Source of the DNA: SAR202 cluster bacterium Casp-Chloro-G4
GTDB lineage: Bacteria > Chloroflexota > Dehalococcoidia > Lucifugimonadales > JADFKI01
Assembly (NCBI GenBank): GCA_002816705.1
Contig: MUCK01000005.1
Span: forward strand, 1 to 32,422
Direction of reading: 5' to 3'
DNA: 32,422 nt
The position numbers were made by a program, and so were the translations under genes. Under the pieces are notes generated by a model that searched no databases, had not been told where the DNA came from, and was given only the letters and a program-made list of their open reading frames with translations. Positions 24,195-31,229 of this stretch are shown in pieces (position 1 is the first letter of the stretch; every line of letters starts with the position of its first letter).

Positions 24195-24878
24195 CTAGCT
24201 AGTGGCCCAGTCGATACCGTTCAACACCAGCTTCTGGAATTCAGGCGTCTCGAAGCTCTGGCCGTTATGCCCCAGTAGGGTCACGAAGACCTTGCCCTGC
24301 CCAAATGAACGGGTCCAGCCTAGTGGAAATGTTCCGCCTGCCATGAACTTGGGCGAGCCGCCCCTGGAAGGCCACACATGAGTGCTTTCCTCGGCGTCGC
24401 CCGTAAGAAAGACATCGTTGCCGTCCCCCCGATACTCGATGCCCATGTAAAGCTCGTCGTTAGTAACGAAGTCTGAAATGCCTTTTGCTCCGGGATGGGC
24501 AGAGTTTTTGACGTTAACCTTGAACTGCCCATAAGGTGGGTGGTAGCTTTCGCCGGAAATCCATCCGCCGCCGGTGATGTCGTAGTACTCTCGCCATTCA
24601 GGTGGCGCAGCGCCGGCGATATGAATGCAGACGAAGCCTTTGCCGCCCTTGATGAACTCGGTCATGCCGGAGCGTTCGGCCTCCGACATAGTCATGTCGC
24701 CATCGCGCTTCGTATTGAATACCAGAGCGTCGAAACCCGCCATGCGACCGGCGTCCGCGAGCACACTGGCGTCCTCCGTGATTTCAAACTGGTGTCCCGC
24801 CCCCCTGAGGAAGGTTTCCAGAACCGGAGTGGACTCCTCATAAGGGTGAGGTCCGCCGGATAAGACTAGTAAATTCAT
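24195..24878 (-). CDS. ThuA-like (glutamine-amidotransferase-fold) protein
   Basis: Cytoplasmic protein, 227 aa, with the ThuA pattern: MNLLVLSGGPHPYEEST at the start, VFNTKRDGDM, GKGFVCIHIAG (about residues 77-90), the segment GESYHPPYGQF, and FVTLLGHNG near the C-terminus. Family members act in trehalose or other sugar-acid use and often have no proven catalysis; no clear catalytic triad was identified. It precedes the GDCCVxC gene on the same strand, across a gap of 132 bases. Its own upstream region is a 222-base gap that divides it from the divergent globin. Confidence 0.8.
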   Translation of the reverse strand: MNLLVLSGGPHPYEESTPVLETFLRGAGHQFEITEDASVLADAGRMAGFDALVFNTKRDGDMTMSEAERSGMTEFIKGGKGFVCIHIAGAAPPEWREYYDITGGGWISGESYHPPYGQFKVNVKNSAHPGAKGISDFVTNDELYMGIEYRGDGNDVFLTGDAEESTHVWPSRGGSPKFMAGGTFPLGWTRSFGQGKVFVTLLGHNGQSFETPEFQKLVLNGIDWATS

Positions 24879-25100
24879 GAAATTCCGCCTGTAGCGTCTT
24901 CTTTATTTGAAGGCGCCTTGTTCGTCGATGGCTGCAAGTTTATCACCCAGGAATATCCTGGTCAAGGAATGTTGTAAGTCTGTAAATTCAGTACCTCGAC
25001 ATAACCAATAGTGATGTTGTTGTCGTTTCAAGGGCCTTACGATGCGTCCAATTTCAGATAAGAACATAAACAGAAAACCCTCTTTGGAAGGAGAATTCTC

Positions 25101-25537
25101 GTGGAGCCTCAACAGATTACGCTGGTGCAGGAAAGCTGGGATAAGGTGGTCCCGATAGCAGACAAAGCTGCGGAGCTCTTCTACGGAAAGCTTTTCGAGA
25201 TGGACCCTTCCGTCGAAGCCTTGTTTGAGATCGAAGCCGAGGAGCAGGGCAAAAGCTAATGAAAACCATCAACTTGGCAGTTCGTGGCTTGAACAAGCCT
25301 GAGGCGCTTGTCCTGGTCTTAAAGGAGTTGGGACGCCGCCATCTAAACTACGGGGTGCAAGACGAGCACTACGACACCGTCGCCGGGGCGCTGCTCTGGA
25401 CCCTGGAACAGGGTTTGGGTGAGGCCTTCACAGACGAAGTTAAGGAGGCCTGGACCGCAGCCTACGTGCTAATGGCAGGCGTAATGAAAGACGCTGCCGC
25501 TGCCGTTAACTCCGAGCATGCAGGGCTGGAAGCCTAG
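25101..25537 (+). CDS. Single-domain globin, interrupted by a frameshift
   Basis: Oxygen/NO-binding haemoglobin of the bacterial single-domain type. GTG 25101 follows a strong GGAAGGAG (25086-25093, 7-base spacer). Helix A-D residues read ITLVQESWDKVVPIADKAAE, then FYGKLFEMDPSVEALF, followed by EEQGK. The frame meets a TAA at 25257-25259, but the second frame (ATG 25259) continues without a break with KTINLAVRGL, the proximal histidine in ELGRRHLNYGV and the C-terminal ALLWTLEQGLGEAF. Adding one A to the run of four (25251-25254) joins the two as EEQGKKLMKT. The restored length of about 145 aa is normal. It is either a sequencing error, true decay or slippage. Confidence 0.85.
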
Positions 25538-25558
25538 TTTAATAAGCACTGGTTAAAT

Positions 25559-25598
25559 AAAACGCCGGGTTCCCTTCTTAGGGTAACCCGGCGTTTTT
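25559..25598. terminator. Strong bidirectional intrinsic terminator
   Basis: AAAACGCCGGGTT (25559-25571) pairs with AACCCGGCGTTTT (25585-25597); an inner CCCT/AGGG step extends the stem with a single bulged T. T-rich bases follow on the + strand and A-rich bases precede, so it can end both the globin and the NHL gene transcripts. Confidence 0.85.
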
Positions 25599-25632
25599 GT
25601 TTACCTAAAATTCAGAGGGTTTTGACCTTGAC

Positions 25633-26694
25633 CTACTTGACCACCCTGATGCGGTGATTCTCGCTGTCGGCTATGTACATTGCGTCGTGACTATCGGCAA
25701 CGATGCCATGAGGCCTGGCTAAACCTGCCTGGAGGGCATCACCGCCATCCCCTTCCGTACCCCTGTGACCGCCGGCAACAGTGTCGATAATGCCAGTTGA
25801 TACGTCCAACTTGCGGATCGCATGGTTTTCCGTATCCACGATGAGCACATTGCCCTGTCTGTCACATCGGATTGCCTTTGGCCCGTTGAATACGACGCCA
25901 ATGGCTGGCCCACCGTCGCCGGAGTAGCCCTTTTCGCCATTTCCGGCTATCAATGTGATGATCCCCGATGCGTCCACTTTACGTAGGGTGCCGCCCTCTC
26001 GCTCGCATATGTATGTGTTGCCCTTGCCGTCCGCGCAGATGGCTCTCGCACCGAAAATACCGGCCTCAGTGGCCTTGCCTCCATCGCCGGTGTGCTCTTT
26101 TTCGCCGGTGCCTGCAAACGTGGTCATCAGTCCGCTGGCCAGGTCCAACCTGCGAACCCGCTGGTCCTGAATATCTGCGATCAGCAGGCCACCAACGCCG
26201 TCTAACACACAGTCGTTGGGCTCTCGCATCTGGGCCTGGGTTGCGGGTCCGCCGTCCCCGCTGTAGCCTACGGTGCCGTTGCCCGCCACGGTAGTGATGG
26301 TGCCGGTGCCTACATCGACCTTCCTTATCGAAGGGTTGAAACGCTGCAGCAGGTAGACGTGCCCCTGGGTATCAACCTGAATAGCGTAAATCTCGTCTAT
26401 GCTGGCCTCGGTGGCCGGGCCGCCGTCTCCGGTGTAACCTTGCTCGCCATTACCAGCGAAGGTTGTGATTTCGCCGCTCTGCATGTCTACCCTGCGTACC
26501 CTGTAGTTAAAGCAGTCCGCGATGTACAGGTAGTGTTCCTGGGGGTCGAACTCTACGTGAAAGGGATTGTCCATCAGGGCCGAGGTGGCCCGCCCGCCAT
26601 CGCCCGCGTAGCCCTGCATGCCGTTTCCTGCCAAGCTGCTGATTCTTAAAGCCATTGGTATTGGGTACCTCGTGTCTGTGGAATAATTAGCCAT
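25633..26694 (-). CDS. NHL-repeat beta-propeller protein
   Basis: Six-bladed propeller in which AGNGxxGYxGDGGPAT-like units recur about every 55 residues, with conserved blade elements IADxxNxRVRRVD. The last two copies are less regular (AGGHRGTEGDGGDA). Such propellers bind peptide, sugar or RNA partners; no enzyme residue is seen. The frame is open from an ATG at 26805, but the repeats begin at Met51 of that reading (26655). ATG 26694, which gives 353 aa, is given here as a compromise because the longer N-terminus is unlike any propeller. No signal peptide is visible with any of these starts, so location is uncertain. It follows the acyltransferase fusion. Confidence 0.8.
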   Translation of the reverse strand: MANYSTDTRYPIPMALRISSLAGNGMQGYAGDGGRATSALMDNPFHVEFDPQEHYLYIADCFNYRVRRVDMQSGEITTFAGNGEQGYTGDGGPATEASIDEIYAIQVDTQGHVYLLQRFNPSIRKVDVGTGTITTVAGNGTVGYSGDGGPATQAQMREPNDCVLDGVGGLLIADIQDQRVRRLDLASGLMTTFAGTGEKEHTGDGGKATEAGIFGARAICADGKGNTYICEREGGTLRKVDASGIITLIAGNGEKGYSGDGGPAIGVVFNGPKAIRCDRQGNVLIVDTENHAIRKLDVSTGIIDTVAGGHRGTEGDGGDALQAGLARPHGIVADSHDAMYIADSENHRIRVVK

Positions 26695-26813
26695 GTGAAG
26701 GTCTAGGTGGGCAACCAGTTTAGGCTGCCCGGCAAGCCCCCGGATGGCGTGCTCCATTTTAGCCCACTGAGATGCCCGGTAACAATATGACCTCAATTGC
26801 CGCATACGGGCGA

Positions 26814-29331
26814 CTAAGAGGCGATATTGCCGCCCGAGAGGTGCAATTCTCTTACAGCACTCTCTATGCCTCTGGTGGCCTCCTCGTACGTCGTGCCTGG
26901 GGTGAAAGTGATTGGTTTACCGAACTGAACTGTGACGTGCTCACGGAAGGGGAACCATCTGCTTCCGCGCCGCTTTGTGCAGGTCAGGCCTACGGGCACC
27001 ACCGGTGTGTTGGACTCAACGCAGAGTAGCCCTGTGCCGCTCTGGAACTTCAGCATGGGCTGGCCTACATGCTGGTCACCCTCCGGGAATATGACGACGT
27101 TCCAACCGGAGTCCATCATGTGGCCAAGATGCTCCAGGCTGGGGCGAATTGCGTTTTCGCGTGAAAGAGGGAAGGCGTTGGCCACCACGTAGGCCGCGGT
27201 GCCCAGCCATTTCTTCGCAAAAGTAATCTCTGCCGCTGCCGCAAATGAGAGCTGACGCCTGTACTTGCGTGGCGTTACTTTGGTAATGACTAAGCTGTCC
27301 CACTGGATTGCATTGTGGTTGGCAGCAAATAAAGAGGGCCCGTGGAGAGACGCTAGATTCTCCGTTCCGGACTTGGTGGCCTTGTACATTATCGTGAGTA
27401 TCGGGAAAGGCAGGGAATGGTGTAGTAGTTCCCTGACCCATTTAAACCAGAGAGTTATGGGCCACTTGTAAAATCGTGGCAGATTCGCCGTGGCCTCCTG
27501 CTGCGAATCGATCATGACTTCCAACTGGGCCACCGTAGTCGGGGACGATACCAGCGACTCGTCTATGTACACCCCCAGTTCCTGCTCTATGGAAGAGAGA
27601 AGCTCCACGCGGCCCAACGAATCGAGACCCAGGTCGTTGCCGACTGTCATGCCCGGCGTTATTTCCAACGCAGGAATGCCGGACACCCTGGCCAACAGGC
27701 CAAGCAGCGTCACCGGGCCAGCGTTGCCACTGGATTGAACGGCCACGGCCGATTCCGAATTGCCCGCGGCCAAATTCGACAAGTACTCGATAACGTCGTT
27801 CTTCTTGACCTTTAGCGTGTGAGTGCGCGGGAAGTCTTCCTCCGGCCAGATGGTGAAGCCCCGGATCTGCTGGTGCTCGGTCATGCGCTGATTAACGGCC
27901 TCGACGGCGGACGCCGCGCCGTCGGCATTGGCAACCAGCGCCGCGTGAACCTCCTGGCCTGATGAGCCGGGCATGCCCACGACGGCTGCATCGGTTACGC
28001 CGGTTTCCTGTCTCAGTTCAGCTTCAATGTCGTCGGGAATGACGTTCTGGCCATTGGGCAGCACTATTATGTCTTTTTTGCGGCCCATGATGTGCAGGAA
28101 GCCCTCGTCATCCACGAATCCGATATCGCCGGACTTATACCACGCGCCGTCGAATGCCTCGGCAGTATGATCTGGGGCCTGCCAGTAGCCGGGCGTGATA
28201 TTGTCACCGCGTCTCTGAATTTCGCCGTCATCTGCAATTCGGACCTCGACACCGGGTAGAGGGCGGCCTACAGAGTCGAATCTGGGTTCTTTTACAGTGT
28301 GGGAGCTAATACCGGGCGACGCTTCTGTTGCGCCATAGCCTTGGAGTACTTTCACACCGATTAGGTTCCACTTCTGGCCCATGTCTGCGTCGAGGGCTGC
28401 ACCACCGGACACGATGTACTCCAGATGGCCCCCAAAGCGAGCGTGTACTTTCTTGAATAATCGGCGTCGAATTGGATGGGGCAAATGCTTGGCCAGAGAC
28501 AGCATCCTAAGCCAGATTGTGGTCTTGCCCTGGCGCTCCACTTCAGCCTCGATGCCGTTCATGAACAGCTCCAAGGCCTGAGGCACCAGGAGCATCATCG
28601 TTAACTTGCGTTCCTGCATTATTTTGAACAGGATGGTGGGCTGCCGGCTAATGGCAAACGTAATGCTGGCTCCGCCGCCTAGCCCCATTATCATGCAGCC
28701 CATTTGCTCGAACATGTGGCTTAATGGGAGCAGGGAGAGCAGTCGATACCCACGGGGGTTGGGAATTACATGCTGGAGGATGGAGCCGAGATTGGCCATC
28801 AGGTTGCCGTGCGTGAGCATAACCCCTTTGGGATCGCCGGTGGTCCCGGACGTGTACATGATTTCCGCCACGTCGTCGGAAGACAGCGGCACCTCTGAAG
28901 GCTCTGGTAGCTGATAGGTCAGCGCTTCCAGGTTCTCGAAGTGTAAGGCGGGTATTCCAAGCGGCTCTGTGTCAAAGGCTGGCATGCTTGAAGTAAGCGC
29001 CAACACTGGCTGAGACTGGTTGACGACGTGCCGCAGGAAATCCTGGGTGGACCTGATGTCGATGGGAACGATAATGGCCCCTGCGCGAACGCATCCAAAG
29101 AACGCGAACACCCATTGTGGGCAGTTGGGCCCCCAGATAATCACCCTGTCGCCCTTCTGGATACCCTTGCTTTGTAGGAGGGTGGCGACGCGACCACTGA
29201 CTTCCCAAAGCTCCTGGTAGCTGGTGACGGGGTAGCGGAATCCGGGCTTGAACAGCAGGGCTGGAGGAATACTTCTCAGAAGATTCCCTCAGCATGTCGG
29301 ATAGTGTTTGGAGCATTTGGGGTGTCTCCAA
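26814..29331 (-). CDS. Adenylation-ACP-acyltransferase fusion, frameshifted near its 5' end
   Basis: Multidomain lipid enzyme. TTG 29331 begins METPQMLQTLSDMLRESSEKY, then the frame must shift (29260-29271) to reach PALLFKPGFRYPVTSYQELW. The main frame continues 776 residues from 29144. Residue numbers below count from there. The AMP-binding motif is YTSGTTGDPKG (97-107), with GYGATEAS (269-276), YKSGD and GRKKDII. A phosphopantetheine site is GLDSLG (Ser509). A PlsC-type domain follows, with FPEG (686-689) and PVVPVG, but its HX4D motif reads H610-NAIQW-D616, one residue longer. The order A-ACP-acyltransferase suggests activating a fatty acid, holding it and transferring it to a lysolipid or glycerol, an analogue of Aas with reversed order (inference). 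Confidence 0.8.
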
Positions 29332-29384: not shown

Positions 29385-31229
29385 CTACGTGGCTTTCCCC
29401 TTAGCTCTGCTACCAGTTCGCCTCAGGCGGTGTCGCGCCAATGTGGACAGTTCTCGTTTACGGAGCCTGTAGTTCTTGGGTGTGACTTCCACCAGCTCAT
29501 CTGGAGCGATGAATTCCAGCGCCTCTTCAAGGCTCATCTTAATTACGGGACTAAGTCGGATGGATATGTCCGAGGTTGAAGACCGTACGTTGGTCAGCTT
29601 CTTTTCCTTGCAGACGTTAATTTCGAGAGCTTCCAACCTGGGGTGGACCCCAACGATCATGCCTTCGTACACCGGCGTGCTGGGCTCTATGAAGGTTCCG
29701 CCACGTACCTGGGCGTTTAGTAGGCCGTTTATCACGGCAATGCCGGACTCCGAGGCTATTATTACGCCGGAATCCGTGTCCTTAACTTCACCAACCATCG
29801 GCTTGTATTCTGTGAATATGCTGCTCATTACGCCGTGGCCCCTGGTGGACCGCAGGAATTGTGAGCGGAAACCAATAAGACCCCGTGTCGGTATGTTGTA
29901 CTCTAACCTTACGTTGCCGTTGGTGTCGTTTTTCATATCGGTTAGTTGTGCCAGACGTCCGGAAAGGTCCTCCGTCAGGCTACCGATGTACTCTGATTTA
30001 CTATCGATTGTAAGAACCTCGTATGGCTCATGGCGGCGACCGTCTACCATCTTGGTAACAGGCTCAGGACGGGATACCTGGAACTCGAAATCCTCTCGCC
30101 TCATGGTCTCCACCAGAATCGAAAGGTGAAGCTCTCCACGACCCGATACAAGGAACTCCTCCGCGCTTTCGGTGCGCTCGACTCGCAGGCTTACATTGGT
30201 TAGCAGTTCGCGTTGCAGCCTGTCGTAAATCATGCGGGATGTGCAGAACGCTCCCTCCTTGCCCACGAAGGGTGAGGTGTTTACCCCAAAGGTCATCATG
30301 ACCGTCGGCTCCTCTATTTCGATGGGAGGAAGAGCGTCCGGTTGCTCCACCGAAGCGATAGTGTCTCCGATGGACACGTTGCTTACGCCGGCTAGGGCAA
30401 TGATATCTCCGGCTTGGGCCTCCGAGACCTCTATCCGTTGCAAACCATGGAATACGAATAGCTTCTCCAACTTGTGGCGCGTGGGTACCCCGTCCCTCCC
30501 GATATGGGCAACCGTATCCCCGGCTTTCAGATTGCCTCGGAAGACTCGTCCGACGGCAATCTGACCGATATAGTTGTCGTAGTCAAGTGCCGCCACAAGC
30601 ATCTGAAGGGGACCTTCCGCTACTTCTGGGGCTGGAATGGTTTCCAGAATGGCGTCAAAAAGGGGAGTTAGATCAACTCTTGGGTCCTCCATATTCGCCA
30701 TTGCGTAGCCGTTCCGCGCAGAAGCGTACAAGATTGGGAAGTCCAACTGATCGTCCGTTATTGCAAGCTCAAGAAACAGGTCTTGCACCAACTCCACAAC
30801 TTCTTCGACCCTGGCTTCGGGCCTGTCTATCTTGTTGATGAGGACTATGGCCTTGACGTTTTCTTGCATTGCCTGCTTCAGAACGTACCTAGTTTGAGGC
30901 ATAGGGCCATCTACGGCGTCGACCAGCAAAAGGCAGCCGTCCGCCATATTCATGATGCGCTGAACTTCACCGCTAAAGTCGGCATGGCCCGGGGTATCGA
31001 TAATGTTGATCTTCACGCCTTTGAAGTTCACGGCGGTGTTCTTCGACAGAATGGTTATGCCGCGTTCGCGCTCCAGCGGGTTGCTATCCATTATTAGCTC
31101 GCCAATTTCTTGGTTGACGCGAAAGACATGCCCCTGTTTTAGAAGGGCGTCTACCAGCGTCGTCTTTCCGTGGTCGACGTGGGCTATTATGGCGAGATTT
31201 CTTATATTCTGATTCGTGGAAGCTTGCAT
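29385..31229 (-). CDS. typA: Translational GTPase TypA/BipA
   Basis: Ribosome-binding GTPase of 614 aa, the usual length. G1 is AHVDHGKTT (16-24), G3 DTPGHADF, and G4 NKID. The EF-G-like domain III-V and the BipA-specific C-terminus are complete ([28 protein letters not shown]). It aids 50S assembly and growth in cold or stress (family knowledge). ATG 31229 with GGAG upstream. Confidence 0.95.

Follow-up and report, generated by a model that had tools for sequence, protein, structure and literature searches.

The window (the whole stretch of 32,422 nucleotides analysed here) carries on its minus strand an open reading frame of 776 codons (26814-29144; 776 aa), along which Pfam domains follow one another in the order AMP-binding, AMP-binding_C_3, PP-binding and Acyltransferase. 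The corresponding E-values are 4e-64, 2.4e-5, 3.9e-9 and 2.7e-15, each match lying above its cut-off, and the last of them (PF01553) reaches 56.8 bits against a gathering cut-off of 23. The features of this fusion gene and its surroundings are the following:

25633..26805, minus strand: NHL-repeat protein (Pfam), 8 bases downstream of the fusion
26985..27374, minus strand: PlsC/LPLAT-type acyltransferase domain (Pfam Acyltransferase, residues 591-720, E 2.7e-15; top fold match PlsC 5kym)
27072..27089, minus strand: motif III of the acyltransferase, FPEGDQ, with Gln where PlsC has Arg159
27297..27317, minus strand: motif I of the acyltransferase, H610-NAIQW-D616 (HX5D), kept in L031, L034 and L042; NHNITRWD in L033
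27522..27710, minus strand: acyl carrier protein (ACP) domain (Pfam PP-binding, residues 479-541, E 3.9e-9)
27789..29138, minus strand: adenylation (acyl-activating) domain with its C-terminal subdomain (Pfam AMP-binding, residues 3-321; AMP-binding_C_3, residues 358-452)
29264..29316, minus strand: N-terminal start region in another frame, with ATG at 29316 and reading MLQTLSDMLRESSEKYS (three-frame translation)
29385..31229, minus strand: TypA/BipA GTPase, the upstream neighbour (NCBIfam TIGR01394, above cut-off)

The fusion and the NHL-repeat gene are possibly co-transcribed. The succession of an NHL-repeat gene and a ThuA-like gene (24195-26805) behind the fusion recurs in the same-genus locus L031 and in none of 11 other loci. 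As a guide to the acceptor, no shared neighbours beyond those of L031 were found among 12 loci, several of them short or ending at the gene, in a comparison that scored only genes resembling five named window proteins.

The catalytic inventory of the open frame is complete. The adenylation domain retains the core motifs YTSGTTGDPKG, GYGATEAS, YKSGDIG, GRKKD and RTHTLKVKK, compared across 22 rows, and the Lys of the last one (A10) is present in all 22. The carrier domain keeps its phosphopantetheine Ser, Ser509, in GLDSLGR (codon 27618-27620, minus strand), and the His and Asp of the acyltransferase, together with its FPEG, are likewise retained. An earlier note on this DNA had described an adenylation-ACP-acyltransferase fusion in the reverse of the E. 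coli Aas order, with an intact Ser in an ACP placed between the two enzymes. The Pfam order and the position of Ser509 within GLDSLGR bear this out, and the reported positions of His610 and Asp616, as well as the five-residue spacing between them, are exact. Judged by its sequence, the gene product is probably an acyl-ACP synthetase, an ACP and a lyso-lipid acyltransferase joined in one chain.

The most conspicuous feature of the acyltransferase is its motif I. The window and four other loci depart from the HX4D spacing usual in the LPLAT/PF01553 family, reading NHNAIQWD in L031, L034 and L042 and NHNITRWD in L033; L031 shares a contig stretch with L002, and L042 with L014. In an alignment of motif I across 26 loci (five of them repeats of others), every other locus with an acyltransferase has the four-residue spacing; L041 ends ahead of that domain. 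The note had named a spacing peculiar to this assembly, with HX4D in the homologues, as the finding that would undo its proposal. Alignment with relatives instead reveals an HX5D conserved within a clade, and an assembly artefact is ruled out by the four other loci that carry it. L033 is labelled Actinomycetes on the strength of a MAG contig of 6 kb, possibly through a binning error.

In a full-length tree of 22 fusion rows the five HX5D proteins form one clade (support 96/99.9), and 16 rows have the four-residue spacing, one of them (L015) being a decayed copy that lacks the His. The wider survey points in the same direction. A search for relatives gave some match in 60 of 60 genomes, mostly to the adenylation domain alone, with long fusion-like matches in the minority. 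An acyltransferase profile, applied at E 1e-30, finds matches at class level in 43 of 393 genomes and at phylum level in 87 of 400, and loci were fetched from the best 30 of each of these two sets, some stand-alone proteins being included. Because HX5D proteins supplied the query profile, the survey would, if anything, favour finding this spacing. The resulting 73 acyltransferase rows (81 matches minus 8 rows repeating other loci, with the identical pairs L037/L078 and L038/L079 retained) comprise 66 with four residues, including L015 with Pro for His and some non-fusion rows, 5 with HX5D and 2 with HX9D; L102, L103, L104 and L115, which yielded no motif I with the patterns used, are excluded from these counts. 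HX5D as a general trait of the fusion family is ruled out by the 66 four-residue rows. In the tree of these 73 rows HX9D is one change, and HX5D is a single clade and likewise a single change, with an SH-aLRT of 89 that falls short of a starred value; the motif columns were retained in both trees. HX5D thus appears to have arisen once, in this sub-clade.

The HX5D proteins also differ from their relatives elsewhere in the domain. They have a second gain of one residue about 35 positions downstream of the extra one (xxW-LG versus NPxW), and their motif III reads FPEGxQ, where the relatives mostly have YPEGxLT. Paired gains of this kind, accompanied by a change in motif III, are to be expected if the fold has adjusted, and not from a sporadic error.

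A longer spacing is seen in two further fusions of the same architecture, L088 (the same gene as L100) and L094 (the same gene as L101 and L131). Their motif I reads NHNFGVGTIGLD and NHHFAAGTFGMD, with nine residues between His and Asp, and the subsequent DPAAAW..LPR aligns to the usual D....LP. The two proteins are 64% identical over about 720 residues. In their class, the domain is matched in 8 of 29 genomes and the long spacing occurs in these two, the fragment L138 being unreadable. Literature searches, for one of which the 15 top matches were considered, turned up no HX9D acyltransferase. This two-member branch may deserve more attention than HX5D itself.

The note had also asked whether His610 and Asp616 still pair. 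In an AlphaFold2 (AF2) model of the window acyltransferase domain, which is of middling confidence (12-row alignment, mean pLDDT 66.4, pTM 0.69), DSSP assigns a strand to residues 61-64 and a helix from Asp72 on, with His66 in the loop between them. In the HX4D control, L035 (the same 12 rows, pLDDT 80.1), the strand covers residues 71-74, followed by His76 and by a helix that starts at Asp81. Since the Asp opens the same helix in both models, the extra residue falls within the loop. Both models have PlsC 5kym as their top fold match (for the window, Foldseek E 3.4e-8; VIA Z 15.5, rmsd 4.0 over 193 residues), and the mark of a PlsC-type fold, a helix that follows the His loop and begins with the Asp, is present in the window model. 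At the level of predicted secondary structure there is no sign that the pairing is lost. HX5D would then lengthen, by one residue, the loop that joins the end of the beta-strand to the helix opened by Asp, most likely without disturbing the catalytic pair. In the homology model described for SalA of marine roseobacters, His109 and Asp115 remain adjacent despite HX5D (PMC8319176).

From this anatomy a reaction sequence may be outlined. The adenylation domain, given its retained core motifs, would convert free fatty acid and ATP into acyl-AMP, whose acyl group would then be taken over by the phosphopantetheine that the adjacent ACP bears on Ser509. His610, paired with Asp616, would deprotonate the hydroxyl of a lyso-lipid, as fold and motif suggest, and this hydroxyl would attack the acyl-ACP thioester, so that the acyl group would be transferred directly from the enzyme's own ACP. 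CoA might be the working acyl carrier in place of ACP. The reading that we prefer, with a probability of about 0.6, is that of an Aas-like enzyme for fatty-acid recycling or scavenging, or for lyso-lipid acylation, which carries its own ACP in a one-chain synthetase-ACP-acyltransferase and whose HX5D arose once with the catalytic pair intact.

The likely acceptor has been approached through motif III and through the lipid genes of related genomes. The Arg of PlsC motif III is described as phosphate-binding in PMC8319176, and corresponds to Arg159 of 5kym, in FPEGTR. At this position Arg occurs in four of four aligned non-fusion PlsC-type proteins and Ile in E. coli Aas; among the fusions, Leu is found in most HX4D members, L040 has Val and L074 Arg, and Gln occurs in all five HX5D proteins, whose motif III begins FPEGD, FPEGE or FPEGA. 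The motif is suggestive only, and would point away from lysophosphatidic acid (LPA) and toward a lysophospholipid, as in Aas, or another acceptor. The argument is not a clean one, given the Arg of L074, the Val of L040 and the fact that non-fusion PlsC-type proteins match Aas by blastp as well as the fusions do.

The genomic context bears on the possibility that the fusion is a second LPA acyltransferase, a PlsC isoform supplied by free fatty acids. PlsC is indeed the top fold match, and the PlsC-like TIGR00530 comes first among NCBIfam models for the window domain, with 50.8 bits, and first or second for three of five fusion acyltransferase domains; the window score nonetheless falls below the cut-off of 102.95, and Gln replaces the motif III Arg. 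Moreover, the 12 related genomes hold 26 PF01553 matches, each genome having a non-fusion PF01553 gene besides the fusion. Motif I could be read in 25 of the 26: 11 non-fusion genes with HX4D, 11 fusion or long paralogous genes with HX4D, and three with HX5D, which are the fusions of G000, G001 and G002. The 11 non-fusion genes read (open frames of 220-464 aa, covering 11 of the 12 genomes) all combine HX4D with FPEGxR. A PlsC isoform is accordingly an unlikely description of the fusion. The PlsY family is above cut-off in all 12 genomes, and with PlsY and a separate PlsC-type gene present, bulk phosphatidic acid synthesis is covered; the fusion is therefore probably accessory, and its role likely lies outside that bulk synthesis. 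As a separate observation, the PlsY-family matches number two to six per genome, above expectation for a single committed phosphatidic acid step.

The integrity of the window copy has to be considered as well. The note had given the fusion as one span, 26814-29331; the fusion frame does lie there, but not as one open frame, since the 29331 end lies in a different frame. Nor is the GTG at 29144, the starting point of the 776-codon count, the homologous start, relatives reaching about 60 residues further. In a three-frame translation the conserved frame runs from about 29264, where it reads PALLFKPGF..., to 26814, and a frame break between 29269 and 29264, overlooked by the note, splits the N-terminus. 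From PALLFKPGF onward the in-frame stretch matches relatives strongly by blastp (E about 1e-39), and the out-of-frame stretch weakly matches the N-termini of L011, L009 and L040 (E 0.09-0.7). The true start is probably the ATG at 29316, in another frame. L031 starts inside the gene at a contig edge, and the break may be either a genuine lesion or an error of sequencing.

The break, near 29264-29269, might mark the window copy as a decaying pseudogene, and a relative is damaged too: L015 (G049) has stops, a frame shift and NPSLGLD replacing NH in its His region, and is itself apparently a decayed copy. Against such decay, the remaining 776 codons of the window gene are open with every catalytic residue retained, the same-genus L031 has no internal stop in its 756 sequenced residues, over which the identity is 80%, and an assembly error would account for a single indel in a MAG contig just as easily. 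We consider a pseudogene quite unlikely.

Comparison with known systems places the fusion among enzymes that share parts of its design. E. coli Aas (b2836) is likewise an acyl-ACP synthetase fused to an LPLAT acyltransferase, to whose acyltransferase part the fusion is related by hhalign with a probability of 96.7%. Most HX4D fusions have a motif III, [FY]PEG-x-L-T, that resembles the FPEGRIT of Aas, and the window protein and Aas both lack the motif III Arg of PlsC. The fusion differs from Aas in its HX5D, in the FPEGxQ of its sub-clade and in its organisation: Aas has the acyltransferase ahead of the synthetase and uses ACP in trans, whereas the fusion has the reversed order and a built-in ACP. 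Against the NCBIfam Aas equivalogs (NF005959; the MFS-type NF006386 and NF005291) the whole frame scores 155.4 versus a cut-off of 1221 and 143.3 versus 1349, and the acyltransferase domains of five fusions give 15.7-23.1 bits (23.1 for the window) with the bifunctional Aas model, whose cut-off is 886. PlsC of Thermotoga maritima (5kym) shares the fold and the FPEG motif, and differs in being a single domain with HX4D and Arg159.

Precedents for HX5D exist in the family. SalA, which acylates a sulfur-containing lyso-aminolipid, is described as an LPAAT-domain protein whose PlsC-family domain has HX5D, lacks the Arg found at position 159 of PlsC and carries a motif III FP[E/S]G[T/V] (PMC8319176); the five proteins considered here share the HX5D and differ in being fusions with FPEG[DEA]. 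HX5D is also reported in motif I of fungal GPAT-A/B (PMC4207751) and in yeast Sct1 and Gpt2 (PMC7613133). For GPAT-A, motif III is given as FPEGGSHD, with a conserved QF in motif I (PMC4207751); the window motif III is FPEGDQHV. Such documented members mean that HX5D is no bar to membership of the LPLAT/PF01553 family, and with HX5D enzymes already on record the picture of acyltransferase chemistry is unchanged.

For the architecture, the closest counterpart is ElbD of Myxococcus xanthus (Lorenzen 2014, as cited in PMC9131029 and PMC9426513); by description, it joins an acyl-CoA/ACP synthetase, an ACP and an AGPAT-like acyltransferase in one chain and in the same order. The window fusion differs in its lack of FAR1 and of an elb operon, in its Chloroflexota-type host and in the HX5D of its sub-clade. 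ElbD is described as FAR1-like, ACS, ACP and AGPAT-like acyltransferase domains, with ACS and ACP activity in vitro and no acyltransferase activity detected (PMC9131029), and elbD homologues of the same four-domain order are reported from sponge symbionts, within Acidobacteriota and Poribacteria (PMC9426513). An ElbD-like ether-lipid enzyme would pass acyl-ACP to a reductase in trans and acylate an alkyl-glycerol or dihydroxyacetone-type precursor. Past FAR1, the domain order is that of ElbD; homologues of the ElbD type in other phyla are said to be almost all without FAR1 (PMC9131029), and ElbD matches are reported in 37 of 558 Chloroflexota MAGs from the Black Sea (PMC11868695). This role is nevertheless improbable, as the frame contains neither a FAR domain nor any reductase family in Pfam, its neighbours are TypA and NHL, and a strong NAD_binding_4 (about 200 bits) occurs in four of the 12 genomes and not in the HX5D carriers G000, G001 and G002 (best 51.5 bits), an absence that is limited in G000 by its completeness of only 67%. 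PF10520 (CarF family) is matched in none of the 12 genomes, but in none of the controls either, and hence says nothing about ether-lipid genes. In another genome, at G010:C1:306176-308344 (L118, L139), a strong FAR-like NAD_binding_4 adjoins a PF01553 HX4D match, apparently in the same open frame of 836 aa, in an order that resembles the description of MXAN_1675.

The note had proposed a "distinct self-contained lipid acylation enzyme". The anatomy is indeed self-contained, with activation and transfer in one chain, but "distinct" now has less behind it: the domains follow ElbD minus FAR1, HX5D is already in print, most fusion relatives are HX4D and the window gene is frame-broken. Neither a PlsC-ACP-AMP-binding fusion nor acyltransferase lipids of SAR202 brought up anything pertinent in the literature; architecture and HX5D are each already known, and their combination in this Chloroflexota sub-clade was not found among the papers listed.

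A more far-reaching and very doubtful proposal is that loop length has changed at least twice in the ACS-ACP-acyltransferase family (HX5D, and HX9D in L088/L094), with motif III changing as well in the HX5D branch, through a re-aiming from lysophospholipid to a non-phosphate acceptor, as proposed for SalA; these Chloroflexota would then make an undescribed acylated membrane lipid via a one-chain enzyme.

With an activator, a carrier and a transferase in one chain, the Aas-like enzyme preferred here would be handy for testing the channelling of acyl groups from synthetase to ACP to membrane lipid. The HX4D, HX5D and HX9D versions that occur naturally in the family offer a test of how much His-Asp spacing is tolerated. 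For uncultured bacteria of the SAR202/Dehalococcoidia type, the finding suggests that fatty acids are recycled alongside PlsY and PlsC.
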